A stretch of 17,500 bases of DNA, from contig JAOTVO010000008.1 in NCBI GenBank assembly GCA_029863355.1, positions 1-17,500 on the forward strand. The letters run 5' to 3'. Shown piece by piece: positions 1,318 through 17,500 of this stretch. Positions within the stretch are counted from its first letter, which is position 1; the number at the start of each line of letters is the position of its first letter. The stretch is from Candidatus Krumholzibacteriia bacterium (lineage in GTDB: Bacteria; Krumholzibacteriota; Krumholzibacteria; WVZY01; JAKEHA01). The translations under genes and the position numbers were made by a program. Below the pieces are notes generated by a model. The model saw only the letters and a list, made by a program, of their open reading frames with translations. It was not told the DNA's origin and did no database searches.

Positions 1318-3113
1318 CGGCTTGCGCGCAGGTCGCTCAGGCGACGATAGTAGCTCGAGATCACGTCGCGGCGGCGGATCATGCCCAGGAGCTTGCGGTT
1401 GTCGTCGCGATCCACCACGGGGAGCTTGTCCACCTCGCACTCGGCGAACTTGCGCATGGTCGAGGCCAGGTTCTCGTCCACGGTCACCCAGGAGACGTGC
1501 TCGTCGGCAATCTCGCGGATGATGAGCAGGTTGTCCAGCTCGCGCTCGACGAGGATCTCGCGGACATCGGCTATGGAGAAGATGCCGGTGAGCTCGCCCC
1601 TGTCATTGATCACGGGGAAGTTCTGCTGGTCCGTCTCCGTCATGATGGGAATGAACGCGCGCAGGGTCATGGTCTCCGGGATGTAGGCGAACTTCGCGTC
1701 GGCGTTGAAGATGTCGCGTACGCTGATCTCCTCCAAGTGATCCTTGACGAAATCGCCTACGTGCGCCGGCGAGTCGAAGCGCGTGTCCACCTGCCTCTGG
1801 TAGATGCTCCAGCGCCGGGCGATGATCGAGGCCAGCGCGCACACCCACATGGCGGGAACGAGCAGGTGGTAGTTTCCCGTCATCTCGCTGACCATGATGA
1901 CGGTGGAGATGGGCGCGTTCGACGCCCCCGCGAAGAAGCCCGCCATCCCGACGATCACGAAGGCGCCGGGATGGGCCACGACACCCGGCATCCACGCGTG
2001 AAAGAGCTTGCCCACCGCCCCGCCCAGGCTGCCGCCGATCACCATGGAGGGACCGAACACGCCGCCGCTTCCGCCCGAGCCGATGGAGAGCGACGTGGTG
2101 AGGATCTTCCCCAGCGCGATGGCAAAGAGCAGGGGGATGGCGATCTGCTCGTCGAGCGCGCCCTGGATCACCCCGTAGCCGAAGGCGAGCGTCTGCGGGA
2201 GGAAGAACCCGATGCAACCGGTGGCCAGCCCGCCTATGGCGGGTTTGACATAGTTGGGGACGCGCATGCGTTCGAAGAACCGCTTGGTCCCGTAGAAAGT
2301 CTTCACGTAGAGGGGCGTGGTCCCGGCGACCACCAGGGCGAGCACCGTGTAGGGCAAGAGCTCGAGTGGATGCGTGAACGCGAAGTCCGACTTGCGGAAC
2401 AGCGGCTGGAAGCCGAACACGATGCCGAAGGTGGAGTAGGCAACGATCGTCGTCACGATGGCGGGGATCACCACTTCGTGCTCGAACTCCGGTTCGCGGT
2501 AGAGGATCTCCGCGGCGAACAGCGCGCCGGCCAGGGGCGCGCGGAAGATGCTCCCGATGCCCGCGCCCAGTCCCGCGGCGAGCATGATGCGGCGCGCGCG
2601 GGCGTCGAGCCCCAGGCGCTGCGCGAGAAACGATCCGAAGCCCGCGCCGATCTGGGCGATGGGCCCCTCGCGTCCGCCCGAGCCGCCCGAGCCCAGCGTG
2701 ATGGCCGCCGAGATCGCCTTGACGATGGGCACGCGACCGCGGATCCGCCCCTGCTGGTTGTGGTAGGCGTCGATGGCCGCGTCGGTGCCGTGCCCCTCGG
2801 CCTCGGGCGCGAACCGGTAGACGATGAAGCCGGCCAGGAGCCCGCCCAGCGCCGGCACGAGCACGAGCAGGTAGCGGCTGAGCGGGGTAGCCGTGGGCGA
2901 GAACAGGGGCGGCTCGCCGTAGGGGTGCGGGGGACGATAGCCCGCGATGGAATCGAGCAGGTAGTGCTGCCCGAGCTGGCAGAGCACGTAGAACGCGCAG
3001 GCGCCCAGCCCGGCCACCACACCGACGACCACCCCGTAGACCATGTAGACGCCGATGGAGCGGAAGTTGAAGGCGGCGGCGAAGCGCAGAATGCGACGAT
3101 GGAATCGGTTCAT
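1314..3113 (-). CDS. CLC chloride channel/transporter with two CBS domains
   Basis: A 599-residue CLC-family anion channel or Cl-/H+ antiporter of the inner membrane. The membrane domain (about 20-435) carries GHGTD (107-111) where most CLCs have GSGIP, GREGP (147-151) with the external gating glutamate E149, and GVFGP (351-355). The candidate central-gate tyrosine is Y438 in WSIY. A pair of CBS domains follows (about 466-525 and 538-592), which in this family often bind adenine nucleotides. The position of the internal proton glutamate reads E202-I203, with isoleucine in place of the second glutamate of ClC-ec1, so coupling to protons may be altered. The gene follows nadE by 63 bases and ends in a 4-base overlap with the eIF-2B-like gene. 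The ribosome binding site before the ATG is weak. Family call is secure; channel versus exchanger is not decided by sequence. Confidence 0.95.
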   Translation of the reverse strand: MNRFHRRILRFAAAFNFRSIGVYMVYGVVVGVVAGLGACAFYVLCQLGQHYLLDSIAGYRPPHPYGEPPLFSPTATPLSRYLLVLVPALGGLLAGFIVYRFAPEAEGHGTDAAIDAYHNQQGRIRGRVPIVKAISAAITLGSGGSGGREGPIAQIGAGFGSFLAQRLGLDARARRIMLAAGLGAGIGSIFRAPLAGALFAAEILYREPEFEHEVVIPAIVTTIVAYSTFGIVFGFQPLFRKSDFAFTHPLELLPYTVLALVVAGTTPLYVKTFYGTKRFFERMRVPNYVKPAIGGLATGCIGFFLPQTLAFGYGVIQGALDEQIAIPLLFAIALGKILTTSLSIGSGGSGGVFGPSMVIGGSLGGAVGKLFHAWMPGVVAHPGAFVIVGMAGFFAGASNAPISTVIMVSEMTGNYHLLVPAMWVCALASIIARRWSIYQRQVDTRFDSPAHVGDFVKDHLEEISVRDIFNADAKFAYIPETMTLRAFIPIMTETDQQNFPVINDRGELTGIFSIADVREILVERELDNLLIIREIADEHVSWVTVDENLASTMRKFAECEVDKLPVVDRDDNRKLLGMIRRRDVISSYYRRLSDLRASR

Positions 3114-3176: not shown

Positions 3177-4820
3177 TCACGCATCGTAGCGTGCCGCAAT
3201 GGGGAACCGCCGGCCCGCGCCGAACGCCTTGGAAGTGACTTTCAGCCCGGGTGGTGCCTGCCTGCGCTTGTACTCGCTGCGCCGCACCGCGGCGACGACC
3301 CAGTCGACGGTCGCGCGGTCGAAGCCCCGCTCCACGATCGCCTTCGCGTCGAGGCCCTGCTCGATGTAGAGGTCCAGGATCGCGTCGAGAACTTCGTACG
3401 GGGGCAGCGTATCGGAGTCCTTCTGTCCCGGCTTGAGCTCCGCCGAGGGCGCCTTCTCCACGATCGCGCGCGGAATGACCTCGCCGGAGCTGTTGACGAG
3501 CCCAGCCAGGCGATAAACCGCGGTCTTGGGCACGTCCGAGATCACGGCCAGTCCACCGCTCATGTCTCCGTAGAGCGTGCAGTAGCCCACGGCGAGCTCG
3601 CTCTTGTTTCCCGTCGACAGCACGAGGTGTCCGAGCTTGTTGGAGTAAGCCATGAGGATGTTGCCGCGGATGCGGGCCTGGACGTTCTCCTCGGCGACGT
3701 CGCTCGCGCGCCCGGCAAACGGTCCCGACAGAGCCGCCGCGTACGCGCTCATGATCTCGCCGATGGGCACGACGGCGAGCTCGACGCCGAGGTTGCCGGC
3801 CAGCGCGCGGGCGTCTTCCAAGCTTTCCGCGGACGAGTGGGGAGACGGCATAGCGACGGCCAGCACCTGGCTCGCGCCCAGTGCTTCCGCGGCGACGGCC
3901 AGCGTGACGGCGGAGTCTATGCCGCCGGAGAGTCCGACCACAGCCCGATCGAAACCGCACTTGGACAGGTAGTCGTGCGTGCCCAGCACGAGCGCTCTGT
4001 AAATGCTCGTCGTCTCGTCCATGGACTCATACTCCGCGGCGTTACTCGGCGCCGACGTGTCGACCACGACCATGCCTTCCTCGAACATCGGACCGACCGC
4101 GATCACTTCCCCCCGCCGTCCCGCCGCGAGACTGCGCCCGTCGAACACCAGCTCGTCGTTCCCCCCCACCTCGTTGACCATGAGGAAGGGCACGCCGTGG
4201 CGACGGGCGTGGCCCCGCACCAGGTCCAGCCGCGTGCGCTCCTTGCCCACCGTGAAGGGCGAAGCGGATACGTTGATCATAAGCGTCGCGCCCGCCGCGG
4301 CCAGGCTGGCGATGGGATCGGCGTCGTAGGTGCGGCGTCCGAAGATCTCCGGGTCGTTCCACGCGTCCTCGCAGATGGAGATGCCCAGGACCTCGCCGCG
4401 AAAGCGTGCCGGCTCGACGCTCGTAGCGGGGTCGAAGTAGCGGGCCTCGTCGAAGACGTCGTAGGTGGGAAGGAGCGATTTCTCCTGGACGTGGACCACT
4501 TCCCCGCCGGCGAGCAGGGCGGCGGCGTTGGCCACCCCCTTGCGCGCGCGACGCGACGGAACGGGCAGGCCCACGACGACGCCCACGCCGCCCAGGGCCC
4601 GCGTCTCCGCGGCAAGCTCTTCCAGCGCGGCCGCGCACGCGTCGACGAAGGCAGGGCGCTCCACCAGGTCCTTCGGTGGGTACCCGCAGATGCACAGCTC
4701 GTGGAAGACGATGAGCTCGACACCGGCGTCGCCGGCCGCACGCAGTCCCCGTCGAATGCGCTGCAGGTTGCCCTCCACGTCGCCGACAACCGTGTTGATC
4801 TGCACGAGCGCCGTTTTCAT
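3177..4820 (-). CDS. nadE: Glutamine-dependent NAD+ synthetase
   Basis: This 547-residue two-domain enzyme makes NAD+ from deamido-NAD+ (nicotinate adenine dinucleotide), ATP and glutamine in the cytoplasm, the last step of NAD synthesis. The N-terminal nitrilase-type glutaminase domain (1 to about 255) has the expected catalytic triad: E41 in HELCICGYPPKDL, K114 in VQEKSLLP and C150 in ISICEDAW. The C-terminal synthetase domain (about 270-547) has the PP-loop SGGIDS (298-303) and STGNKSELAVGYCTLYGDM (402-420). The length is normal for the glutamine-dependent class. The start at 4820 begins directly with the conserved strand KTALVQINT; the ribosome binding site is weak. It lies 46 bases after the GT39-propeller gene and 63 bases before the CLC gene, with no terminator-like hairpin in either gap, so it is probably read as part of the same transcript. 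Confidence 0.97.
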   Translation of the reverse strand: MKTALVQINTVVGDVEGNLQRIRRGLRAAGDAGVELIVFHELCICGYPPKDLVERPAFVDACAAALEELAAETRALGGVGVVVGLPVPSRRARKGVANAAALLAGGEVVHVQEKSLLPTYDVFDEARYFDPATSVEPARFRGEVLGISICEDAWNDPEIFGRRTYDADPIASLAAAGATLMINVSASPFTVGKERTRLDLVRGHARRHGVPFLMVNEVGGNDELVFDGRSLAAGRRGEVIAVGPMFEEGMVVVDTSAPSNAAEYESMDETTSIYRALVLGTHDYLSKCGFDRAVVGLSGGIDSAVTLAVAAEALGASQVLAVAMPSPHSSAESLEDARALAGNLGVELAVVPIGEIMSAYAAALSGPFAGRASDVAEENVQARIRGNILMAYSNKLGHLVLSTGNKSELAVGYCTLYGDMSGGLAVISDVPKTAVYRLAGLVNSSGEVIPRAIVEKAPSAELKPGQKDSDTLPPYEVLDAILDLYIEQGLDAKAIVERGFDRATVDWVVAAVRRSEYKRRQAPPGLKVTSKAFGAGRRFPIAARYDA

Positions 4821-4866: not shown

Positions 4867-7218
4867 CTATCGCTCGCCCGCGCGCCGAGGCTCGGTCAGG
4901 TCTTCTTCCTCAAGCTGCGCGAACTTTAGTGGCTTGTCCAGCCTTTCGACGTAAGCCTCGAGTCCTTCCAGCAGGTAGATGCCCATCGGCCCGTCCATGT
5001 TGGACACGATCGCCAGCCGACCTCCGTCCGGGCTCCACGCGGGAAAGGCGTCGAGAGACCGCCTGCCGTCCGGATTCCAGTTCTTGGTGAGCAGCAGCCG
5101 CCGGCGGCCGTCGCGCGAGACGATGTAGATGTCGACGCTTCCCCAGTCCTTGGCCGCCACGGCGAAGTACCGGCCGTCGGGACTCCAAGCCGGTGTGCAA
5201 TCGACCTCGCGGGGAGACTCGACGACTCGCCGCCGCTTCGTCGCCAGGTCGAGGATCACCAGCTCGCGCCAGCGGCGCGTCCACGCGAGGCGGGATCCGT
5301 CCGGCGAGTACGACGGGCAGCCGTTGTCCCCGTCGTCGGTGAGCCTGACCAGCGCCCCCGTATCCAACTCGACCTCCCACAACTCCGAGCCGCCCGTGCG
5401 CTCGGACGAGAACACGATAGCGCGTCCGTCGGGCGTCCACCGCGGCCACGTGTCCCGGCCCGAAGCGCCCGCCACCCGCGCGACCGCTCCCGACGCGAGC
5501 TCGGCGACGTAGATGTCCCAGTCGCCGTCGCGCGTGGAGGCGAAGGCCAGCCTCGTTCCGTCCGGCGACCAGTCGGGCTGGCCGTCGTCGAACGGCCCGC
5601 CGACGAGCAGGTCGGGCTCGCCGCCCGTGGCGGGAATCACGTAGATGTCCGCGTTACCCGTCCGGCTCGAGGCGAAGGCGATGCGGCGCCCGTCGGGACT
5701 CCAGTCGGGCGCGGCGTCCCGCCCCCGGGGCGGCGCGCTGAGAAGCGTGCGGCGCAGCGGGTCATGGTCACGAACCCGCTCGTAGATCATCAGCCCCGCG
5801 GGCACCGCGTAGATCTGCTCGAAACGGAGCTCCCCCGCGATGGCCGGCCCGTGCGTCAGGAGCGGCGCCAGGAGCGGACGCAAACCCTTGATGACCTCGT
5901 AGTGCAACGATAGGAAACGAACGCCGTCGCCGGCGAGCTCGCTCATCGTCTCGTCGTACGCCCCGTGCGGGATCTCCACGTACTCGGCGTCGGCGTAGAA
6001 GGCCACGTAGGGCTTGCGGTCCGCCACCTTGTCGCCCGGCCGAACCAGGTCGTGGAGGAACCGGCCGGCGGTCCGCATCTCCGCAAAGCCTTCGTCGACC
6101 GGCTCGGTCAGGTGGTGCCAGTTGACGAACGGGGCGGCGAGCGCGCACGCCCCGATGACGGCGAGGGCGGCGGACTTGCGTCCCCGCCTCCCCAGCGCGC
6201 CGGCGCCGACGAACGCGGACAGGATCGCGAGCGGGAGGAACGGCAGCAGGTAGCGCTCGGTTCCCGCGCGTACGGTGAAGAGCGGTCCGATGAACAGCGG
6301 CGCGAACGCCGCCAGCAGGAAGGTCCGGCGGCGGCAGACGCCGTAGAGCGCGAGCAGGAGGGGCGCGAACACCAGGTTCCGCGCCAGCAGGTAGCCGTCC
6401 ACGGGGAGCTTGCGCGCGTAGACGACGAGCAGCGAGCGCACCGCACCCCCCCCTCCGCGCGCCTCGTCCGTCGAGGTCACGGTCGCCGTGTCGCCGGCGA
6501 CGGTTCGCTCGCGGTCCTGCCAGTCCTGCGCGCTGATCCCGAAGAACTCGCTCTTGGGCAGGAGCTTGATCTCCCGCGACGACCGGTACATCGCGGCCAG
6601 GTTGCACGCGTAGACGAACAGGAACGGCAGCAGGAGCGCCGCCGCGCGCCTGGGCGTCCGACGCCGCAGCAGCGCCAAGATCCCCATGACGGCGACCATC
6701 TCCGGACGCGTGATCGCGGCCAGCCCCCCCGCCGCGCCCGCGGCCACGTCGCGGTTCTGCCCATAAAACAAGAGCGCCAGCAGCATCCACATCGTGTAGG
6801 CCGACTCGGAAAACGTCTCCAGCGAGAGGCGGACGAAGAGCGGGCTGGCGGCGAAGACGAGGGCGCAGTAGAAGGCGAGGCGGCGACTGAGGAAGCGGGC
6901 GGCCAGCAGGTAGAGCACGCACGGAGCGGCCAGGCCGGCGAGGAGCGAGACGACCTGCGCGGCGCGCACCCCCTCCCCGACGAGCGGGAGGAACAGCGAG
7001 ATCAGCAGCGGGTAGCCCAGCGGAAACGCACCCGCCGCCGGCGAGTGCGACCACAGGGTCCGGGCCTGGCTGATGTAGAACGTCCCGTCGTACGAGACAA
7101 GGTCGAAGCGCCCGAGCAGGGGCAGACGAACGGCCGCGGCCGCCAGGACGAGCAACGCGCAGGCCAGCCAGGGGCCGCGGGGCGCCCAAAGGGTTGTTGT
7201 GATGAGCCTCTCGCGCAC
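4867..7218 (-). CDS. GT39-like membrane glycosyltransferase fused to a PD40/TolB propeller
   Basis: About 783 residues if the GTG at 7218 is the start. The N-terminal half is a GT-C type integral membrane glycosyltransferase (PMT/ArnT/GT39-like): a first membrane helix at about 15-34, an external loop with VSYDGTFYISQARTL (41-55) where the acidic GT-C motif is expected, then about eight to ten further hydrophobic segments up to about 365. A soluble linker (about 370-500) leads to six PD40-type blades, each with (S/T)PDG, at 507-510, 551-554, 595-598, 638-641, 679-682 and 729-732. Such enzymes use polyprenyl-phosphate sugars on the periplasmic face, so the propeller is probably periplasmic. 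The open frame runs on to 8472, but that stretch is antisense to the regulator. A GTG at 7248 and an ATG at 7368 are alternatives. A run of eight G encodes GGGG at 255-258. Confidence 0.85.
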   Translation of the reverse strand: MRERLITTTLWAPRGPWLACALLVLAAAAVRLPLLGRFDLVSYDGTFYISQARTLWSHSPAAGAFPLGYPLLISLFLPLVGEGVRAAQVVSLLAGLAAPCVLYLLAARFLSRRLAFYCALVFAASPLFVRLSLETFSESAYTMWMLLALLFYGQNRDVAAGAAGGLAAITRPEMVAVMGILALLRRRTPRRAAALLLPFLFVYACNLAAMYRSSREIKLLPKSEFFGISAQDWQDRERTVAGDTATVTSTDEARGGGGAVRSLLVVYARKLPVDGYLLARNLVFAPLLLALYGVCRRRTFLLAAFAPLFIGPLFTVRAGTERYLLPFLPLAILSAFVGAGALGRRGRKSAALAVIGACALAAPFVNWHHLTEPVDEGFAEMRTAGRFLHDLVRPGDKVADRKPYVAFYADAEYVEIPHGAYDETMSELAGDGVRFLSLHYEVIKGLRPLLAPLLTHGPAIAGELRFEQIYAVPAGLMIYERVRDHDPLRRTLLSAPPRGRDAAPDWSPDGRRIAFASSRTGNADIYVIPATGGEPDLLVGGPFDDGQPDWSPDGTRLAFASTRDGDWDIYVAELASGAVARVAGASGRDTWPRWTPDGRAIVFSSERTGGSELWEVELDTGALVRLTDDGDNGCPSYSPDGSRLAWTRRWRELVILDLATKRRRVVESPREVDCTPAWSPDGRYFAVAAKDWGSVDIYIVSRDGRRRLLLTKNWNPDGRRSLDAFPAWSPDGGRLAIVSNMDGPMGIYLLEGLEAYVERLDKPLKFAQLEEEDLTEPRRAGER

Positions 7219-7395: not shown

Positions 7396-8076
7396 ATGAA
7401 CGAGGCTTTCAAAGCCTTGTCGGAAACGCGGCGGGCGATTCTCGTCTTCCTCAAGTGGAACGGCGGCGCGACGACGACCGAGGCCGCCGCACACCTGGGG
7501 ATCAGCGACGAAGGCGCGCGCCAGCACCTGGTGCTGCTCGAGCGCCGCGGGTGGGTAGCGCGTCGGGACGTCCGGCCAGCCACGCCCCGCTCGGGGCGCC
7601 CCACGGCACGCTACGAGCTGAGCGACGCCGGCGAGTCGCTCTTTCCCCGGCGCTACGACGAGCTCGCGATGACCCTGCTCGACTTCATCGTCGAGCGACA
7701 CGGGCGCGAGGCGTTGCGCGATGTTCTCGCACGGATCGCGGACCGGCGTGTCGAGTCGTGGACGGGCAGGCTGCAGGGACGTTCGCTGGAGGAGCGGGTG
7801 GAAGCGCTGCGCGACCTCTACGAGGAGGACGACGCCTTCGCCTCCGTCGAGCGGCGCGACGGGAAGTACCTGCTGATCGAGCGCAACTGCCCGTTTAGCC
7901 GCGTCGCGGCGGCCCATCCCGAGCTGTGCGGGGCGACGCACGCGACGCTGACGCGGCTCCTGGGGGTCCGCGTTCGCCGCCTGGAGCGGATGCACGCCGG
8001 AGACGGCCGCTGCGTCTTCGAGATCCTCCCGGACGAGCCGGTCGACGCAGCGGCGATGGACGTCGCGCTCGATTAG
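7396..8076 (+). CDS. SufR/COG2345-like winged-helix transcriptional regulator
   Basis: A 226-residue cytoplasmic DNA-binding protein. Residues 1-80 form an ArsR/MarR-like winged helix, with the helix-turn-helix around TTTEAAAHLGISDEGARQHL (26-45) and a basic wing RRDVRPATPRSGRPTARYEL (56-75). The C-terminal part carries three cysteines in the arrangement found in SufR-type regulators: C165 in ERNCPF, C178 in PELCG and C206 in GRCVFEI. In SufR these bind a 4Fe-4S cluster that controls DNA binding and so senses iron or oxidative stress. No suf genes are visible beside it, so its target is unknown; the divergent GT39-propeller row and its own promoter are the nearest candidates. Its stop codon shares four bases with the stop of the convergent Trm112 gene. 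The family is clear, the cluster and ligand are inferred. Confidence 0.85.
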   Translation: MNEAFKALSETRRAILVFLKWNGGATTTEAAAHLGISDEGARQHLVLLERRGWVARRDVRPATPRSGRPTARYELSDAGESLFPRRYDELAMTLLDFIVERHGREALRDVLARIADRRVESWTGRLQGRSLEERVEALRDLYEEDDAFASVERRDGKYLLIERNCPFSRVAAAHPELCGATHATLTRLLGVRVRRLERMHAGDGRCVFEILPDEPVDAAAMDVALD

Positions 8077-8327
8077 GACGCCGCGGGGATTCCCTTCTCG
8101 ATCAGCATGATCGGGATCCCGTTGCGGATCTCGTAGATGGTCTTCTCGTCTTCGGTGATGAGCGCCTCCTCGAGACGCTCGCCCAGCTGCTCGCCCGAGC
8201 GGTTCTTCACTCGCCCCGCGGCGATGTCCGCGTTGAGCGACTCCAGCCGCCCCGCCTCGAGCAGGCGCACCGGTACCTTCGTCGCCGGACAGCACAGAAT
8301 CTCCAGCAGCTTCCTGTCGATAGGCAT
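8073..8327 (-). CDS. Trm112 family protein (UPF0434-type)
   Basis: A small 84-residue protein with the family signature: LLEILCCPATKVPVRLL near the N-terminus (7-23) and IYEIRNGIPIMLIEKG near the C-terminus (64-79). Eukaryotic and archaeal Trm112 activates methyltransferases; the role of the bacterial members is not settled. The zinc-knuckle CPxC is here CPAT (13-16), so the metal site is probably absent. The segment 24-63 is longer than in E. coli YcaR, a form with the pattern CPxT that I believe is common in other bacteria. The start at 8327 is supported by AGGGAG about six bases upstream; a longer frame to 8402 lacks such support. The stop overlaps that of the regulator, so the two messages are complementary at their 3' ends. 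Confidence 0.85.
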   Translation of the reverse strand: MPIDRKLLEILCCPATKVPVRLLEAGRLESLNADIAAGRVKNRSGEQLGERLEEALITEDEKTIYEIRNGIPIMLIEKGIPAAS

Positions 8328-8507
8328 CTCCACTCCCTCTGACCGACGCGGGTATTCCCGGTCGTGCCTCCCGCCAGCATACGCCAAGCGGCGGCCCGCC
8401 ACCAGGGGGGTGTTCCGAGATTGCGCTTGTGCGAGGCGTTGGGCAGCCCGTAACTTGGTCCGACCTTTGCAAGGTGCCGCGGGTTCCCGTCCCGCTCCGG
8501 AGGTTCC
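8328..8507. promoter_or_regulatory. Divergent intergenic region between Trm112 and the GH130 fusion
   Basis: This 180-base gap must carry promoters for both genes. A partial dyad at 8341-8363 (GACCG ... CGGTC, with an inner GGG ... CCC) lies in the presumed Trm112 leader and could form a hairpin. Reading toward the fusion gene, TTGTGC (8427-8432), 18 bases, then TAACTT (8451-8456) is a weak promoter candidate. GGAGGT at 8499-8504, three bases before the ATG at 8508, is a strong but closely placed ribosome binding site that fixes the fusion start. Confidence 0.45.
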
Positions 8508-11500
8508 ATGACGGACGCTCTAACCCCCCAGGAAGCGGAGCTGGCCAAGCAGTTTCGCGAGCAGGTGGACGCCTTCGTGGCGCGCGTCGGCGACGCGCGG
8601 TCGCTCGACGTCCTGGTCGGCATCCCGTTTCACGACGAGGCCGACACGGTGGGCGCGGTGATCGACGTCGCGCGCCGCGGGCTGGCCGCCGCCGGACTCG
8701 CCGGGCGCTCCGCGGTCGTCTGCATCGGCTCGGAGCGCGGCGCTTACATGATCAGCGCCGCCGGCGGCGCTTCGGCGGGGCGGCCGGGGCCGGTGCGCGT
8801 GCTCGCCGGCTCCATCGGAAACGGGTTCGAGGGCCGCGGCTGGTGCGCGCTCGCTCTCGCGCACGCCGCCGCTCGCCTGCGCAGCGCGCTGGTCATGCTC
8901 CCCCCCAATCTGGGCGTGCAGCCTCGCGGCGGCGACGAGGCCGGCGCCGGTTTCGGCCCGCACTGGATCGCCCGCCTGCTGGAGCCAGTGCGCGACGGCG
9001 ACGCGGTGGCCCTGGCGCGCTTCAGCCGCCACCCCCTCGCCCAACCGGTGGAGTCGCTCCTGGCATTCCCCATCGCGACCGGGCTCTTGGGGCTGCGCGC
9101 ACGCCAGGGCCTGCCCGGCGTGGCGGCCATGTCCGCTCGCTTTCTCGAACGGGCGACGGCGGGGCTGGGCCGCTGGAGTTTCGACGCGGGCAACTACGGG
9201 TTCGAACCCTGGCTCCTCGTCGAGGCAGCGACGGCCGGCGTGCCGGTGGTCGAGGTGCCCCTCGGCGCCGTCTCGCTTCGCCACGAGGTCGGGCGCCTCA
9301 AGCTCGTGTTCCGCCAGACCGCGCACGTCCTCTTCGACCAGCTGGCGCGCCGGTCGGATCGATGGACCGCCCGGGGCGCCCTGGTGCGCGCGCCCGCGCT
9401 CTCGCCGCCGGTGGTCGAGTCGCCGCCGCCGCCGTATCCCCTCTCCAGCGAGCAGTTGCGGCGACGGTTCTGGCTCGAGTTCAACCACTACGATGACACC
9501 CTGTATCCGAGAATCCTGCCCGAGGCGCTGCGCGAGCGTCTGGAGTCCACGCAGGGCGCGGGGAACGTGCACCTGGCCGACGACGAGTGGATCGCGCTGA
9601 TCGAGGAGTTTCTGCTCGCGTTCGCCTTCGAGCGCGACTACCACCGCGACGACATCGTCGACGCGCTCTTCCCCTTCTTTCTGGCGCGGCTGGTCTCCCT
9701 CATCGACGAGGTAGGCGCGCGCGACCGCGTGCTGGCGGCGTCGGACCTGCCCGCCCGAGAGCGCTCCGCGGTCGTCCGCCTGGAGGCGGAGACGCGCTTC
9801 GCCGCGCAGGCCGACGCGTTCGCCGCGCGCTGGTCTTCCTTCAGCGAGCGCTGGCGCGAGCGCGAGCGGCGCACCACATCCTATCTGCCGCGCCTGGGGG
9901 CGTGGGAGTTCGTGCCCAACGTCGGGATCATCGTTCCCCAGGAACTCCCCGTGCCGGGCGGGAACTCGGTGTGGGCCTACCAGATCTACAAGGAACTCGT
10001 CGACCGCTACCGCGAGGAGTATCGCGCCTTCGTGACCGGCGAGCTCGGGCTGAGCGACCCCACCGACTCCGGAGCGGTCCTGGAAGGCTTGGGGGCGTAC
10101 ATGTACCGTCTCGACCGCGCGCTCGACGCGGACGTCTTCCCGTTCGACCTGGTCACGCCGGAGGGGGCGCGGACGACGGCCGAGCGGATTCGCGAGAACT
10201 TCTCCGGCGGGGACGTGTTCCGCCTGACCCCGGAGGCCGCGGAGCGCTTGCTGCGGCGCGTGCCCCCGGCCAACCTGGTCACACAGTTCGGGTTCCGCGA
10301 CGTCGCGGCCCTGCTCGAGGCGCACGACCCCAACGACGCCCTGGGGCTGGCCGCGTGGACGGATCAGCAGGGCTACCTCAGTCGCGTGCTCGACTACGTC
10401 GAGAAGGAAGCCACGCCCGCGTGGTTCGCGGACGGCCCCGCGGAGGTGCGCGTCGCGGAGACGCGCTACCTGGCCGGCGCCCCCGACATCGGCGCCGCGG
10501 CGGCGCTGACGCGGCTCGCCGGCCGCCTGGTCGTGGCCAACGCGACGCCCGGCTCGGGCGGACGGCTTCCCAAGCTGTGGTTCTTCCTGCGCGCCGTGAA
10601 GTCGATCGTGGGGATGGAAGTGTTCTCCGACATGTGGCGGGGGCTGGCGCGGGAGAAATCGGGGTTCGCCGAGGGCCTCGCCGCCTGCCTGCGCAACCAC
10701 TGGGGCCGCCGCATCCTCTCCGTGCACAATGCCTTCGAGAACCAGCACCAGCGCATCCTGGTGGAACGCGTGCTGCGGTTCGCCGAGGCGCTCGCCGCCG
10801 ATCCCAAGACGGAGCGCGCCGGCACGCTGTTGCGCGCCGCGGCCCGCGCGTACCACCTCTCCATCACGCTGCCCGACGGAACGTTCGTGCCGCTGTCGGC
10901 GTGGACGTGGGCGAGCCATAGCAACCGCGGCGCCGTCGGGAGTCCCACCCCGCTCTCTTCCCTCGTAGAGCGGGACTGGGCCACGCACGACTTCTTCTCG
11001 CTCTACCTGGAGCGCGCTGGGCGCGCCACCGGCGAGGCGATCGACGAAAAGGTCATCGAGCTGGTCAGCGCCGGACGCGAGCCCGACGACCTGCGCGAGC
11101 ACTTCCTGGGAGTGAAGGCGAGCATCGACACGCTGGTGGCGGCGCCGGGGGGAACCAGCCTGCCCCCGCCGGCCCGCAAGCTGACGCGCCCGCTGCCCGG
11201 TCCCATCCTGGCGCCGGCGGCGAACGATTGGGAATCCCGCTACGTGCTCAACGCGGCGGCCGTGCGCCTCGACGGCACCATCTACATCCTCTACCGGGCG
11301 TTCGGCGCCGACGAGCTGTCGCGCATCGGGATGGCCTGGACACGGGACGGCCTGAACATCGACGGCCGCCTCCCCGAGCCGGTCTTCGCGCCCGGCGATC
11401 CCACCGAAGCCGGCGGCTGCGAGGATCCACGCCTGGTCGTCATTGAAGGCCGTCTCTACATGCTCTACACGGCGTACGACAATCGCGTGGCGCAGATCGC

Positions 11501-12119
11501 CATGGCCTCGATACCGGTCGATGCTTTCCTGGAACGGCGTTTCGACCAGTGGGTGCGCCACGGTCTCGCCTACCCGGGCCTGGCCAACAAGGACGCGGTC
11601 CTCTATCCGGAGAAACTCGCGGGGCGCTACGCGGTCTATCACCGCATCGACCCCAACATGTGGGTGTCCTACCTGGACGACCTCGCCTGCCCGTGGCCGC
11701 GCGAGGACCAGCGCATTATCGCCGGCCCGCGCTCGGGCATGATGTGGGATGGGGTGAAGGTGGGCGCGGGGGCGCAGCCGATCAAGACCACGCGCGGCTG
11801 GCTCCACATCTACCACGGCGTCGACTTCGAACGCTCGTACCGCCTCGGCGTCCTTTTTACCGCGCTCGACGACCCCGCCGAGGTCCTGTACCGCTCGCCC
11901 AACGCGATCCTGGAGCCGGAGACCGACTACGAGATGGGCAACGGGGATTCGTGGGTGCCGCACGTGGTGTTCACCTGCGGCGCGGTGAGCGCGCAAGACA
12001 AGGCCGTGCTGGAACCCGACGACGAGATCCTCGTGTACTACGGGGCCGCCGACACGGTGATCGGGGTGGCCAGGGGGACCGTGCGCGACATGGTGCCGGT
12101 CATCGACACGCTCGACTAG
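8508..12119 (+). CDS. GT-A (GT81/GT2-like) - unknown domain - GH130 phosphorylase fusion
   Basis: A single open frame of 1203 residues. Residues 1 to about 285 resemble GT81/GT2 GT-A enzymes (glucosyl- or mannosyl-phosphoglycerate synthases): VGIPFHDEADTVGAVI (37-52), PHWIARLLEPV (151-161), FEPWLLVEAATAGV (232-245) and LGAVSLRH with H259. The usual DxD position reads PPN (132-134). About 310-455 is helical and resembles the C-terminal extension of such enzymes. About 460-890 I do not recognise. Residues 895-1203 are a GH130 propeller with GCEDPRL (970-976), D973 being the likely catalytic acid, plus LYRA (928-931), YHRIDPNMW (1044-1052) and IYHGVD (1101-1106), which hold possible phosphate ligands. 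GH130 members mostly phosphorolyse beta-mannosides to mannose 1-phosphate. No signal peptide is seen, so it is probably cytoplasmic. The start is fixed by GGAGGT. It converges on a GT4 gene six bases away. Confidence 0.88.
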   Translation: MTDALTPQEAELAKQFREQVDAFVARVGDARSLDVLVGIPFHDEADTVGAVIDVARRGLAAAGLAGRSAVVCIGSERGAYMISAAGGASAGRPGPVRVLAGSIGNGFEGRGWCALALAHAAARLRSALVMLPPNLGVQPRGGDEAGAGFGPHWIARLLEPVRDGDAVALARFSRHPLAQPVESLLAFPIATGLLGLRARQGLPGVAAMSARFLERATAGLGRWSFDAGNYGFEPWLLVEAATAGVPVVEVPLGAVSLRHEVGRLKLVFRQTAHVLFDQLARRSDRWTARGALVRAPALSPPVVESPPPPYPLSSEQLRRRFWLEFNHYDDTLYPRILPEALRERLESTQGAGNVHLADDEWIALIEEFLLAFAFERDYHRDDIVDALFPFFLARLVSLIDEVGARDRVLAASDLPARERSAVVRLEAETRFAAQADAFAARWSSFSERWRERERRTTSYLPRLGAWEFVPNVGIIVPQELPVPGGNSVWAYQIYKELVDRYREEYRAFVTGELGLSDPTDSGAVLEGLGAYMYRLDRALDADVFPFDLVTPEGARTTAERIRENFSGGDVFRLTPEAAERLLRRVPPANLVTQFGFRDVAALLEAHDPNDALGLAAWTDQQGYLSRVLDYVEKEATPAWFADGPAEVRVAETRYLAGAPDIGAAAALTRLAGRLVVANATPGSGGRLPKLWFFLRAVKSIVGMEVFSDMWRGLAREKSGFAEGLAACLRNHWGRRILSVHNAFENQHQRILVERVLRFAEALAADPKTERAGTLLRAAARAYHLSITLPDGTFVPLSAWTWASHSNRGAVGSPTPLSSLVERDWATHDFFSLYLERAGRATGEAIDEKVIELVSAGREPDDLREHFLGVKASIDTLVAAPGGTSLPPPARKLTRPLPGPILAPAANDWESRYVLNAAAVRLDGTIYILYRAFGADELSRIGMAWTRDGLNIDGRLPEPVFAPGDPTEAGGCEDPRLVVIEGRLYMLYTAYDNRVAQIAMASIPVDAFLERRFDQWVRHGLAYPGLANKDAVLYPEKLAGRYAVYHRIDPNMWVSYLDDLACPWPREDQRIIAGPRSGMMWDGVKVGAGAQPIKTTRGWLHIYHGVDFERSYRLGVLFTALDDPAEVLYRSPNAILEPETDYEMGNGDSWVPHVVFTCGAVSAQDKAVLEPDDEILVYYGAADTVIGVARGTVRDMVPVIDTLD

Positions 12120-12132
12120 AACCGCTCAGTCG
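12113..12132. terminator. Small inverted repeat across the convergent stop codons
   Basis: CGACT (12113-12117) and AGTCG (12128-12132) flank a ten-base loop and span the stop codons of both convergent genes. The arms are short and no T-run follows on either strand, so it is at best a weak shared terminator. Confidence 0.2.
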
Positions 12133-14348
12133 GTGGCGCCCGCCTTCTCGGCGTCGAGCGCGGCCAGCTGGTGCAGCGTGAGAAACGATAGCAGGCAGAA
12201 CACCGACGCTTCCGTTCCCTGGTTCGCGTTCAACCCGGCCGGCGTGAGGGCGTCGTGGCAGCCGCCCGTCCCGAAGTCGTAGAGCGACTGCCCCAGCCGG
12301 TTGGCCCCCAGGAACCAGTCGGCCGCCGCGCGAATCGGCCCCAGCAGCGCCTTGTCCCTCCGGTCCTGGAACACCGCGCCCACGGCGTCGATGAACACCG
12401 CCGCCGACACGGGCGACTCGTCTTCCCCGTCGCGCTCGCGCACGAAATTCCGGCCGCCGCCGGTGCGCTCGATCAGGACCTCCAGCGTGCGATCGACGTC
12501 CTTGCGCAGATCCGGATCCTGCAGCGCGACCGCCGCCACCGATAACACCTGCACGGGCAGGGGCCAGTCCGCGGCGGGCCACGCCTCCACCCAGTCCTCC
12601 CCCACCACCGCGCGTACGCGGTCCACGTAACGGCCGAGCAGGCGCTTGAACTCCGACGCGCCGGGGAAGCGCGCCAGGTAGTTCGCGGCTCCGAGCGCGC
12701 CGTAGGCCGCCGCGCGGGCGTCGGAGAGCTCGCCGCGGCGTCCGACGAGGTCGTGGAAGCTGTCGATGGCCGACTGCGCGAGGGCAGACGACCGGTGCTG
12801 CACGAGGTATCCGAGCGCCCACAGCGCTTTGCCCACCGCCACCGCCGAGGCCGGACCCAGGGGCCGGCGGCCGTAGTCGAGTCCCTCGTGCACCTGCGTG
12901 CCGTCGCCGATCAGCGTCTGCAGCAAGGCGACGTTCACCTCTGTCAGACGCTGCGCCTGGGGGAGGCTGAAGACGTCGTGGAACTTCGCGCAGGTGACGA
13001 CATAGGCGGCTGCGTCCTCGAGGCGATAGCCGTGCCTCCACTGCGGCACCGTGTAACGCGCGTGATGGGCGGGGCCCGTGTCGTCGCACAGGCGAGCCAG
13101 GTGGTCGAGGCGCGGAGTGGGAACGTTGGTCGCCGAGATGGGGCGGCGCAGCGCCGACGCCCGCGGGCGGCGGGGCATCACGTGGTTGCGCACGTCGTCG
13201 AAGACGCCGAGGTAGGACCTGGCCACCGCCGGCCAGACCGTGCCCCGGCAGTGGATGTAGGCGCGCTTGCGCATCGCCGTCAGCGCGACCTCGTCGTCGA
13301 GCAGCGCGTTGACCTCGCGCGCGAGCGCTTCGGGGTCGTGCGGGGGCACGAGCGCACCGCGGCCCTCGGCCAGGAGCTCCTCGGCGTGCCAGAAGGGCGT
13401 GGCCACCACCGCTTTGCCCGCCCCCATGGCATAGGAGAGCGCGCCGCTGGTGATCTGGTCCATGTTGTGGTACGGCGCCACGAACAGGTCGCTGGCGCCG
13501 ATGTACTCCAGGAGCTCGTCCAGCTCGACGAAGCGCGGGTGGAAGAGCACATGATCTTCCAGGTGCAGGTCGCGCACGCGCCGCTGCAGCTCGAGCCGGT
13601 ACGACTCGCCCTCTTCCTGCACCACCGCCGGATGGGTGGCACCGAGCACGACGTAGGTGACGCGCGGGTGCCGCTCCACGATGCGCGGCAACGCTTCGAT
13701 CATGTCCTCGATGCCCTTGTTCCTGGACAGGAGCCCGAAGGTCAGGAGCACGCGCCGGCCCTCGACGCCGAACTTGTCCTTGTAGTAGTTGGGGTCGATG
13801 AAGGGCACGTCGTGAATCCCGTGCGGGATGAGCACGGCCTTCGCCTCGCCCACGTGGTAGACGTCGGAGATGAACTCGAGCGCCTTGCGCGTCATGACTA
13901 CGACGCGGTCGGCCCGGGCGAGGATCTCGTCGAATACCGCTTTTTGGTCGGGCAGCGGGTTGGCCAGCACGGTGTGGCAGGTGACCACCACGGGTCGGTT
14001 GAGGTCGCGCAGGAGCCCGAGCACGTTGCCGCCCCAGTTGCCCCCGAAGATCCCGTATTCGTGCTGCAGGCTCAGCACGTCGATGCGGCTGAAGTTGAGG
14101 AAGTCCGCCGCGCGCGCGTAGTCGATCTGGTGCCCCTGGCGCACTTCGAACTTGACCCGCTCGGGGTAGTCGTAACCCTCGGGCCGGTCGTTCATCGCCA
14201 CCACGGTCACCCGCTGGTCGCCGTCGCACTGGCGCAGCACGGCGCTGCTCAGGTCGTGCGTGAACGTGGCGATCCCGCACTTGCGGGGCAAGTAGCTGGC
14301 CAGGAACGCGATTCCGCGCCCGCGCGTGACATTGCTCGGAGCCACCAT
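12126..14348 (-). CDS. GT4 glycosyltransferase with C-terminal toroid-like domain
   Basis: A 740-residue cytoplasmic protein. Residues 1 to about 390 are a GT-B fold GT4 transferase: LASYLPRKCGIATFTHDL (16-33), LQHEYGIFGGNWG (94-106), CHTVLANP (124-131), IPHGIHDVPF (174-183), FGLLSRNKGI (204-213) with the donor-binding R209 and K211, and APYHNMDQITSGALSYA (291-307). The classical EX7E is replaced by Q298-x7-Y306. Residues about 430-740 are helical and resemble the alpha/alpha toroid appended to a GT4 subgroup often found with GH130 genes, ending in WFLGANRLGQSLYDFGTGG and ANQGTEASVF motifs. It probably transfers mannose or glucose from a sugar nucleotide; donor and acceptor are inferred. The ATG at 14348 was chosen over an ATG at 14408 because GGAGGT lies seven bases upstream of it and the promoter lies between them. 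It converges on the GH130 fusion. Confidence 0.88.
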   Translation of the reverse strand: MVAPSNVTRGRGIAFLASYLPRKCGIATFTHDLSSAVLRQCDGDQRVTVVAMNDRPEGYDYPERVKFEVRQGHQIDYARAADFLNFSRIDVLSLQHEYGIFGGNWGGNVLGLLRDLNRPVVVTCHTVLANPLPDQKAVFDEILARADRVVVMTRKALEFISDVYHVGEAKAVLIPHGIHDVPFIDPNYYKDKFGVEGRRVLLTFGLLSRNKGIEDMIEALPRIVERHPRVTYVVLGATHPAVVQEEGESYRLELQRRVRDLHLEDHVLFHPRFVELDELLEYIGASDLFVAPYHNMDQITSGALSYAMGAGKAVVATPFWHAEELLAEGRGALVPPHDPEALAREVNALLDDEVALTAMRKRAYIHCRGTVWPAVARSYLGVFDDVRNHVMPRRPRASALRRPISATNVPTPRLDHLARLCDDTGPAHHARYTVPQWRHGYRLEDAAAYVVTCAKFHDVFSLPQAQRLTEVNVALLQTLIGDGTQVHEGLDYGRRPLGPASAVAVGKALWALGYLVQHRSSALAQSAIDSFHDLVGRRGELSDARAAAYGALGAANYLARFPGASEFKRLLGRYVDRVRAVVGEDWVEAWPAADWPLPVQVLSVAAVALQDPDLRKDVDRTLEVLIERTGGGRNFVRERDGEDESPVSAAVFIDAVGAVFQDRRDKALLGPIRAAADWFLGANRLGQSLYDFGTGGCHDALTPAGLNANQGTEASVFCLLSFLTLHQLAALDAEKAGATD

Positions 14349-14355
14349 GCTTCCC

Positions 14356-14361
14356 ACCTCC
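14356..14361 (-). promoter_or_regulatory. Ribosome binding site of the GT4 gene
   Basis: GGAGGT on the minus strand, seven bases before the ATG at 14348. It decides between this start and the in-frame ATG 60 bases upstream, which would sit before the predicted transcription start. Confidence 0.8.
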
Positions 14362-14387
14362 GTTACCGATGGTGTATCGACGACGCC

Positions 14388-14416
14388 ATCATAGCACGGC
14401 CGGTGCACTCAGTCGA
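14388..14416 (-). promoter_or_regulatory. Sigma-70-like promoter of the GT4 gene
   Basis: On the minus strand the -35 is TCGACT (14411-14416), followed by 17 bases and the -10 TATGAT (14388-14393). Four and five of six bases match the consensus. The -35 overlaps the last codons of the SGNH hydrolase gene. Transcription would start near 14381 and give a leader of about 30 bases, so GT4 can be expressed separately from the gene before it. Confidence 0.55.
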
Positions 14417-15653
14417 GGAAGGCCAAGTCGGCGTTGGAGAGCTGGTAGTCGAGGCCGTAGCGCGCGCGCAGGTGGTCGAGCAGCACGCGCGCGGCCAGCG
14501 CGTGACCGTAGGCGTTGGGGTGCCCGTCGCGCTCGAGGTAGAGCTTGCGCCGCCGGGCCGCGTCCCTGAATTCGGCGAGCGGGTAGACGTAGTCGATTCC
14601 GCCCCCCCCGCAGAAGCGCCCCAGGCGCACGAAGGGCGCGTGGAAATCGAGCCGATCCGGGGCCACGCCCGCACCCTCGAGCAGCCACCGGCGCCAGTCG
14701 TCGTCGGCCTCGATGAGCGGAAAGACGAATACGATGAGCTCGGCGCCGATACTGTCGCAGTACTGCTTGACGCGCAGGAGAATCGCTTCGGTCGTGCGCC
14801 AGGCGCTCTCCATGCCCTCGTCGGAGGGGGACTCGAAGACGGACCAGTGCGTCACCGACGCCCCGCCCGCATTGCGGCCGAAGCCGAGCGGGAACGCGTC
14901 TTGCGCGGGCGCCTCCGCGCCCGTGACGCTCTTCAGGCTCCGGACCAGCATCACGAGGAAATGGCTCCGCCGCAGGAGATTCCTGAGCCCGTGGGCGGCG
15001 CGCCGCGCGGGCGGCGCACCCGGACGCCGCACCGGAGCGGCCAGCACCAGCGAGTCCCCCTCCACGGCGAAACGCGGCTTGGGTGCCGTGCCGAGGAACA
15101 GGTGATCTAGCCCGTTGTTGATGACGTCGTTGATCATGAAAAAGTCCAGCACCACGATGTCGGGCCGCAACCGCGGTGCGACCCGCTGCAGCAGCAGGAA
15201 CTCCTGGTCGGTGCCGAAGCCCGGGACGGCCGTGTTGAGCACCTCGGCCGTGCCGCCGAGAGCGCGCGCCATGAAGTCGGAGCATCGCCACTGGACGTCG
15301 ACGCCGGCGCCGAACGCCACCGAGTCCCCGATGTGCAGGACGCGCGGCCGGCCCGGCCGCGGCTCGGCGACCTCGCGCTCCCGCATGCCCAGGGCGTTCA
15401 CGCGCACGCGGTAGTCGATGCCGCGCCGGCGATCGACCACGTGCACCCGCGAGCCCGGGTCCAGGCTCCAGCCCAGTTCGGGGTCGAAGCGGATCACCGT
15501 GCCGACATTCTCCACGGGGAAGAAACGTCGAGTGACGATCTCGGCGGCGAGGATTAGTGCGGCGAGCGTCGTCGCCGCGAGCAGGAAGTTGGCGCCCAGG
15601 CGCGCCCAGCGGGATCTATGGCCGCGCTGGCGCCGCAGGTCGTCGTCCAGCAT
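14409..15653 (-). CDS. Membrane-anchored SGNH/GDSL hydrolase
   Basis: A 414-residue protein with one N-terminal membrane helix (about 20-42, after a basic stretch) and a periplasmic SGNH/GDSL hydrolase domain. The blocks are visible in order: GDS with nucleophile S111 in LHIGDSVAFGAGV, the oxyanion glycine region TAVPGFGTDQE (141-151), N175 in FFMINDVINNG, and D376/H378 in ERDGHPNAYGH. Proteins of this layout often remove or transfer acyl groups on surface polysaccharides, and AlgJ/AlgX-like acetylation factors are relatives; the substrate here is unknown. The segment FCGGGGIDY (347-355) is encoded over a run of eight G. The start at 15653 has GGAGGA seven bases upstream. It sits 60 bases before the GT4 start and 79 bases after the S9 peptidase, with its own promoter in the latter gap. 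Confidence 0.85.
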   Translation of the reverse strand: MLDDDLRRQRGHRSRWARLGANFLLAATTLAALILAAEIVTRRFFPVENVGTVIRFDPELGWSLDPGSRVHVVDRRRGIDYRVRVNALGMREREVAEPRPGRPRVLHIGDSVAFGAGVDVQWRCSDFMARALGGTAEVLNTAVPGFGTDQEFLLLQRVAPRLRPDIVVLDFFMINDVINNGLDHLFLGTAPKPRFAVEGDSLVLAAPVRRPGAPPARRAAHGLRNLLRRSHFLVMLVRSLKSVTGAEAPAQDAFPLGFGRNAGGASVTHWSVFESPSDEGMESAWRTTEAILLRVKQYCDSIGAELIVFVFPLIEADDDWRRWLLEGAGVAPDRLDFHAPFVRLGRFCGGGGIDYVYPLAEFRDAARRRKLYLERDGHPNAYGHALAARVLLDHLRARYGLDYQLSNADLAFLD

Positions 15654-15732: not shown

Positions 15733-17500
15733 TTACCTCTCGCCGCCGATGGCGCGGTTGCGCACCATCTCCTCGACGTCGTACGGCGAGGGCTCCCCGC
15801 CCAGGTAACGGTGGAACCAGTCGAGATGGGCCGCGTAGTAGAGCGGCAGCGACCGCACGTAACTGGGCCAGTGCCCGTCGTTTTCGAACACGATCAGACG
15901 CGACGGCACGCCGCGCTTGCGCAGGGCCGAGAAGAACTCCAGGCTCTGCGTGTAGGGCACGCGGTAGTCCTTCTCGCCGGTGATGACCAGGCACGGCGTC
16001 TCGAAGCGGGCGGCCAGCCGGTGCGGAGACCACTTCTCGTAGTCCTCCGATTCCCACGGCGCGCCGCCCAGATCGAATTGCGGGAACCAAAGTTCTTCGG
16101 TCGCTCCCCACATCGCGGGCAGGTCGTAGACCCCCATCATCGCGGCCAGGCACTGGAACCGGTTCGTGTTTCCCTCCAGCCACATCATCATGTAGCCGCC
16201 GTACGACCACCCCATCGCCCCCATCCGCTCTTCATCCACCCAGGGTAGCCGGGCCAGCCCGTCGGCGACAGCCATGACGTCCTCGTAGACCTTGCCGCCC
16301 CAGTCGCGTGAGATCGCGCGCGTGAACGCCTGGCCGAATCCCGTCGAGCCGTGCGGGTTGGGAAAGGCGACGACGTAGCCGGCTCCGGGGTAGACCTGCC
16401 AGTCGCCGCGGAAGCTGTCCGTCCACTGCATCTGCGGTCCCCCGTGAACATTGACGATGAGCGGGTAGCGCCCCTGCGGGTCGAAACCGTGGGGCTTCAC
16501 CACGAAGGTGTGGATCTTGCGACCCGTCGGGGACTCGAACCACATCTCCTCGGCCGGACGGATATCCACCTCGTCCTCGATCGATCGGTTGAAGGTGGTG
16601 AGCCGCCGGCTCCCCTTGCCCTCGTTGGTCACCGTCCAGATCTCGCTGGGCTCGCCCACTGAACGGCGTGATACGACGATGCGACGACCGTCGCTCGAGA
16701 CGTCGAAGGCATCAACGTGGCGCAGATCGACGATGGGACGGATGCGCCTGGTGTCCAGGTCGATGCGATACAGAGGCCGGGCGCCTTCCTCTTCGGCGGT
16801 GAAGTAGATCGAGCGCGAGTCGGGCGCCCAGCGGTGTGCCACCACCCAGTTGTCGAACGCCTCGGTCAGCACCTCGCTCTGCCCGCTGCGCCGGTCGTAG
16901 ACGGCGAGACGGAGACAATCGGCCTCGTAGCCGGGCTCAGCCTGCGTGAGGTAGGCGATGGCGCTGCCGTCGGGCGAGTAGCGCGGGTCGGCGTCGAAGG
17001 CCGGATTGCCTCCGGTGATGTTCAAGCGGTCGCCGCCGGAAAGGGGGACGACAAAGAGGTCCTTGTTGGTCGTCTCCCACTCGTTGGCGTCGGCGTTACC
17101 CGCTACGCAGATCTCCCGTCCGTCCGGCGACACGTCGAGGCCGGCGAAGCCGCCCGCCGAGAACGCCGGGAGATCCACGTGGCCCGGCGTCAAGTCGGTC
17201 GTGGTCTTCGCTTCTATGTCGTAGACGAGCGTGTGGAAGCGCTTTCCGTCCTTCCAGAAGGTCCAGTGCCGATAGAGGAGGTCGTCGGCCACGTGGGCCT
17301 GGATGACGCCCTCGTCGAGGTCCTTCGCGAGCTTCTCGTTGCAGTCCGAGTCGGCACCGCACTCCGGAAAGACCTCGGCGACGAAGAGGAGCCGCCCGCC
17401 GTCGGGCGTCCACACGGCGCCGCCGGCCCCGGGGGCGAAGTCGGTGAGCCGCTGCGCCTCGCCGCCGTTGGCGGGAATGCGCCAGGCCTGTTCGCCCTTC
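15733..17500 (-). CDS. S9-family serine peptidase (partial, 5' end missing)
   Basis: The C-terminal 588 residues of a prolyl-oligopeptidase-family (S9) enzyme, of the acylaminoacyl-peptidase/dipeptidyl-aminopeptidase type; the N-terminus is beyond the right edge. In visible numbering, PD40-type propeller blades (VWTPDGG, VSPDGRE, YSPDGS, WAPDSR and VSSDGRR) occupy about 1-310. An alpha/beta-hydrolase domain follows, with VHGGPQMQW (351-359), the nucleophile S432 in GWSYGGYMMMW, the acid D511 in GEKDYRVP and the histidine H543 in ENDGHW, a complete triad. Such enzymes cleave short peptides and are cytoplasmic or, with a signal peptide, periplasmic or secreted; the missing N-terminus leaves that open. 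The stop is TAA, followed by a GC hairpin and then the SGNH promoter. There is no visible functional link to the glycan genes. Confidence 0.93.
   Translation of the reverse strand, partial: KGEQAWRIPANGGEAQRLTDFAPGAGGAVWTPDGGRLLFVAEVFPECGADSDCNEKLAKDLDEGVIQAHVADDLLYRHWTFWKDGKRFHTLVYDIEAKTTTDLTPGHVDLPAFSAGGFAGLDVSPDGREICVAGNADANEWETTNKDLFVVPLSGGDRLNITGGNPAFDADPRYSPDGSAIAYLTQAEPGYEADCLRLAVYDRRSGQSEVLTEAFDNWVVAHRWAPDSRSIYFTAEEEGARPLYRIDLDTRRIRPIVDLRHVDAFDVSSDGRRIVVSRRSVGEPSEIWTVTNEGKGSRRLTTFNRSIEDEVDIRPAEEMWFESPTGRKIHTFVVKPHGFDPQGRYPLIVNVHGGPQMQWTDSFRGDWQVYPGAGYVVAFPNPHGSTGFGQAFTRAISRDWGGKVYEDVMAVADGLARLPWVDEERMGAMGWSYGGYMMMWLEGNTNRFQCLAAMMGVYDLPAMWGATEELWFPQFDLGGAPWESEDYEKWSPHRLAARFETPCLVITGEKDYRVPYTQSLEFFSALRKRGVPSRLIVFENDGHWPSYVRSLPLYYAAHLDWFHRYLGGEPSPYDVEEMVRNRAIGGER

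Follow-up and report, generated by a model that had tools for sequence, protein, structure and literature searches.

A single uninterrupted frame encodes a protein of three parts, in which a GT78-like domain, a middle domain (MID) and a GH130 phosphorylase domain follow one another. From its sequence and from the genes that accompany its relatives, we tentatively propose that this protein would be an intracellular GH130-type beta-1,2-mannoside phosphorylase with two accessory domains, working in an internal cycle fed by GDP-mannose. The stretch of DNA that we analyzed, 17,500 nucleotides long and called the window here, contains the following features relevant to this proposal.

8499..8503, plus strand: ribosome-binding site GGAGG (from the sequence)
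8508..12119, plus strand: three-part protein (TRI), 1203 aa (from the open reading frame list and full-length relatives)
8610..9842, plus strand: GT78-like domain (mannosylglycerate-synthase fold), about residues 35-445
9843..11162, plus strand: MID, residues 446-885 (W799 and E821 invariant; structure model)
11163..12116, plus strand: GH130 phosphorylase domain (residues 886-1203; nearest kin Teth514_1788/1789)
12126..14408, minus strand: GT4 glycosyltransferase (about residues 1-405) fused to a C-terminal domain, CT (about residues 416-760) (from Pfam, neighborhoods and the CT profile)

The sole Pfam match found in the three-part protein is PF04041, at 164.5 bits against a curated cut-off of 26, which bears out the GH130 assignment made in the first-pass annotation. 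By sequence and by fold, the nearest solved kin of this domain are Teth514_1788 and Teth514_1789, which have been assayed as beta-1,2-mannoside phosphorylases (PMC4264767). Residues N915, R930, E972, D973, R975, K1028, H1045, R1046, H1103, and D1182 are identical in all 170 aligned proteins. Among them, N915, D973, and D1182 align with Asn28, Asp92, and Asp281, the -1 subsite residues reported for Teth514_1788 (PMC4264767), while the basic residues H1045, R1046, and H1103, also common to both Teth enzymes, are putative phosphate-binding residues by alignment. K1028 is likewise common to both Teth enzymes and is the likely equivalent of Lys199 of BT3780, a lysine described as a mark of beta-1,2 specificity that is kept in Teth514_1788/1789 (PMC4599007). 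Judged by these residues, the GH130 domain is apparently intact and looks active. Its score of 229.8 bits against the NCBIfam model for beta-1,2-mannobiose phosphorylase (NF052550) is under the equivalog cut-off of 450, a shortfall that counts against our proposal. The GH130 fold is common to the GT108 family, and no chain named as a Leishmania enzyme was found among the 28 profile matches (E<=10). At six loci (L074, L075, and L077-L080), the gene after a GH130 gene encodes two tandem GH130 domains (626-685 aa) and no MID; the hosts are five candidate-phylum records (Parcubacteria, Roizmanbacteria, Levyibacteriota, and Patescibacteria) and one Oligoflexales.

The region between the outer domains, left unassigned in the first-pass annotation, did not gain an assignment from our searches, as MID had zero Pfam matches and its predicted structure (pLDDT 92.2, pTM 0.90) had no match in the structure libraries searched, including with Foldseek. 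MID may have a new fold. The mean consensus share of its two parts is 0.48 and 0.57, with W799 and E821 invariant in all 170 aligned proteins and Y782, W801, and F793 (169 each), S803 (167), D790 (159), and E744 (158) nearly so. A residue make-up of this kind is usual for sugar-acting sites, and MID may be a catalytic or a binding domain. One alternative to an accessory role is that MID is itself a sugar-acting catalytic domain that carries out a transfer, as in the plan of cyclic glucan synthase. That enzyme is membrane-bound, which counts against the comparison. It shares the order of parts with the three-part protein: a GT, a middle cyclization domain, and a C-terminal domain of a phosphorylase family that acts on chain length. 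This plan is reported in PMC10834661. Together with the conserved residues it gives the catalytic reading some appeal; against it are the missing fold match and the lack of any recognized donor-binding motif in MID, and we consider it unlikely. With a confident model but no structural match found, this 440-residue family could yield a new carbohydrate-active fold from a single crystal or assay. In L071 (Candidatus Jordarchaeum), we observed the reordered arrangement GH130-GH130-MID in a frame without a GT part, and a separate GH130 gene alongside it.

The three-part gene is convergent with the GT4-CT fusion gene, which lies six bases past its stop. The CT of the window has no Pfam match. Its profile matched part of 7tem at E 2e-16 and gave weak matches to enzymes of the GH88 type (E 0.002-0.003); these matches point to an alpha-helical toroid. 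Mannose-1-phosphate guanylyltransferase (ManC) and phosphomannomutase were absent among the window genes identified, and a scan for promoters and terminators returned 0 promoter-like sites and 2 terminator-like sites, with 1.3 of the latter expected.

The window also contains a chloride channel of the ClcA/ClcB kind (1314-3113, minus strand), whose C-terminal part matches CBS-domain proteins, and next to it an NAD synthase that carries a nitrilase-type domain (3177-4820, minus strand). At 4867-7200 (minus strand, with a provisional gene start), a PMT_2-type membrane glycosyltransferase runs on in one frame into five PD40 beta-propeller repeats, an unusual-looking fusion. A SufR-like winged-helix regulator (7402-8076, plus strand) overlaps the end of a small Trm112-like protein (8073-8402, minus strand), and a GDSL/SGNH-type esterase (14409-15653, minus strand) and a Dpp5-like S9 peptidase (15733-17415, minus strand) lie at the far end.

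We surveyed the neighbors of the three-part gene at the best 80 of 574 confirmed loci in named genomes and kept 66, dropping the 14 that had no single frame with MID and GH130. CT was found at 42 of the 66 loci, labeled alone at 27 and fused to GT4 at 15. GT4 of type a was present at 31 loci and a further GT4, type b, at 13; mannose genes were represented by ManC (27 loci), phosphomannomutase (25), and a mannose-6-phosphate-isomerase-like cupin (4). A separate GH130 gene occurred at 9 of the 66 loci, not counting a split-frame piece in L061. Near the three-part gene, 24 of the 66 loci had no CT and 39 had no ManC, but the counts of neighbors present are raw counts and lower bounds, because many contigs are short and end close by. 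Among the four nearest relatives of the window in named genomes (L001-L004), GT4-CT adjoins the three-part gene in three (L002-L004), and neither ManC nor phosphomannomutase lies nearby in any; ManC-like genes were found elsewhere in the two of these genomes that were searched, both under the curated cut-off. The neighbors in the wider family tie it to mannose activation genes, in keeping with the link to mannose metabolism drawn in the first-pass annotation, and they hint at an internal mannose-polymer cycle.

The same neighborhoods could be read as salvage of external beta-1,2-mannosides that feeds GDP-mannose synthesis. This has been proposed for Thermoanaerobacter, where GH130 genes of the same type lie beside ManC and GT4 genes and were read as serving to salvage oligomannan taken up by the cell (PMC4264767); such a setting does not call for an internal polymer. 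An ABC-transporter ATPase family does recur in our survey, at 14 of the 80 loci; however, it falls far short of the CT-type family, which is present at 46 of the 80 (single and fused together). In addition, salvage of short oligomers needs no two extra conserved domains, and the Thermoanaerobacter enzymes (303 and 313 aa) do without them. We regard salvage as an unlikely role for the three-part protein.

The association with CT extends beyond adjacent genes. In the order of Syntrophomonas zehnderi, presumably Syntrophomonadales and defined here by genome G005, which carries the S. zehnderi locus L034, MID was present in 55 of 63 genomes. CT matched at E below 1e-30 in all 55 of these, whereas only 2 of the 8 that lack MID had such a match (Fisher p 4.1e-7, in a test that treats kin genomes as independent). 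A weak CT match in G014 (3.3e-4) was scored as absent; with weak matches included, the tally is 58 of 63. When the window CT was used as the query, CT was also found in 8 of 9 genomes with related loci, and the archaeal genome of L071 gave no match with this query, a single distant one that may miss it. This co-occurrence indicates that CT and the three-part protein belong to a single system, also where their genes are not neighbors.

In the cycle that we tentatively propose, phosphomannomutase would provide mannose 1-phosphate and ManC would convert it to GDP-mannose within the cell, and GT4 and CT would then make a mannose-containing glycan, also inside the cell. MID and the decayed GT78-like domain would bind, place, or modify this glycan for the GH130 site, where beta-1,2-linked mannose and phosphate would yield alpha-mannose 1-phosphate, returned to the same pool. 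The GH130 domain could also run in reverse and extend the chain from alpha-mannose 1-phosphate. In either direction, mannose 1-phosphate would be the point at which the three-part protein and ManC meet, and the net effect would be a mannogen-like cycle or a length-control arm of a mannan synthase. If this is true, the set of three-part protein, GT4 and CT, ManC, and phosphomannomutase would allow a direct test of it in hosts that are in culture, Syntrophomonas among them.

A bolder extension holds that many anaerobic bacteria and some archaea build and recycle an internal beta-1,2-mannan reserve instead of glycogen. In this view MID would be a catalytic domain of new fold that initiates, lengthens, or rearranges the polymer, and the three-part protein would be synthase and phosphorylase in one; we find this unlikely. 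Glycogen phosphorylase scored above the cut-off in 3 of the 63 genomes and glgC in 2. All 3 genomes with glycogen phosphorylase carry MID, and both genes are missing from the 8 genomes without MID. Since they are equally rare with or without MID, their rarity does not favor mannan storage; it is compatible with such storage and leaves room for another reserve.

The N-terminal part of the three-part protein is folded like GT78 mannosylglycerate synthase. The synthase-type GT-A domain claimed in the first-pass annotation thus stands as a fold, but a synthase role is not supported for this protein. In mannosylglycerate synthase, a DxD motif is reported to act in metal binding and a histidine to lie near the metal (PMC2581804). 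In the window protein, the DxD position reads P132-P-N134 (P-x-N) and the metal-histidine position is Leu. All 15 standalone GT78-like relatives have DxD, and 13 of them have His at the metal-histidine position. In contrast, none of 166 fused proteins has DxD; the last Asp of the motif is kept in 103, the His in 30, and an E/D-x-D together with His in 19. The proteins of L011 and L016 are examples with E-x-D and His. These counts leave out 4 of the 170 fused proteins, in which the GT part is too short, and the standalone set (P0139 and P0141-P0154) is 15 of 25 GT matches, from which P0132-P0138, P0140, P0155, and P0156 were excluded because they are short or probably derive from fused proteins in pieces. 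Window positions 8508-9437 had no Pfam match at E<=10 and hence none to PF21969 (MGS_GT), which matched 3 of the 5 standalone kin scanned (P0148 and P0153 above the cut-off, P0152 below it). In a FastTree tree of MID and GH130 (midpoint-rooted, so with a provisional root), proteins with the metal Asp and His occur in both halves and at least 11 changes of this state are needed, which makes repeated loss of the metal residues likelier than a single loss. With the DxD and the metal histidine lost, the GT-A part is probably decaying and a working synthase in the window protein is unlikely, although the domain may possibly bind a nucleotide sugar or a glycan. The family clearly exemplifies the loss of the metal motif from a GT-A domain within a conserved fusion.

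These observations bear on whether the protein is bifunctional, with the GT-A part making a mannoside or glucoside and GH130 recycling the product. The fold itself is in favor of this, as are the conservation of G231 (168/168) and W235 (160/168) and the 19 fused relatives with E/D-x-D and His, in which the GT part may be active. Besides the loss of the motif, the opposing evidence is that the GT part is less conserved than GH130 (mean consensus share of 0.48 for the GT-A stretch and 0.41 for its helical part, compared to 0.70) and that MID and GH130 occur without it, in the L071 frame and in P0124 as deposited. We consider a bifunctional enzyme very unlikely in the window protein. Known solutes of the mannosylglycerate-synthase family carry alpha-linkages and GH130 acts on beta-mannosides, so the making of a compatible solute, which the first-pass annotation had suggested, is not indicated.

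The gene starts with an ATG at 8508 and runs for 1203 codons without an internal stop, with GGAGG four bases upstream, in agreement with the open frame and strong ribosome-binding site described earlier. Used as a database query, the full chain returned 284 proteins at E<=1e-3 (7996 candidates scored), and 109 of the 120 matches listed are 1150-1260 residues long; the closest among the matches listed, P0001, is 96% identical over the entire length. Full-length relatives are found in many separate records from many bacteria and some archaea, are mostly about 31-57% identical, and are mostly named "predicted GH43/DUF377 family glycosyl hydrolase," "glycosidase," or "hypothetical protein" by their sources. 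The three-part chain thus represents a stable protein rather than a chimera or an assembly error. An artifact, whether a frameshift between domains, a chimeric assembly, or a chance open frame in GC-rich sequence of the kind seen in the antisense frame opposite the gene (8520-11996, minus strand, 1158 aa, which itself probably just reflects GC-rich codon usage), is refuted by these relatives and has a negligible probability.

GH130, GT78, and the mannose genes are of kinds already known, while the fusion, the MID family, and the tie between MID and CT were not found described in the open-access library searched. Known GH130 enzymes consist of one domain of some 300 aa, whereas the GH130 domain of the window forms the final quarter of a chain of 1203 aa that has two further domains. 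The GT78 mannosylglycerate synthase of Rhodothermus marinus (2bo4/2bo7) has the same fold as the window domain at 16% identity; compared to it and to standalone glucosylglycerate-synthase-like kin, the window domain lacks the DxD and metal His and is fused to MID and GH130. The likeness to cyclic glucan synthase is an analogy only, as that enzyme (about 2780 aa; 8rf0) handles glucose rather than mannose and has other families at every position. The proposed cycle resembles that of mannogen, reportedly the subject of Sernee 2019. If our proposal is true, the mannogen-type cycle, so far described in Leishmania, would gain a widespread prokaryotic counterpart built from other domains. In Leishmania, GT108 enzymes, which have the GH130 fold, recycle this reserve (PMC8950772). 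In contrast to the three-part protein, these mannosyltransferase/phosphorylases (6q4y, 6q50) are eukaryotic, single-domain proteins without MID or a GT78-like part, and they form a separate family that matches the GH130 part with a much lower Z and 14-16% identity.
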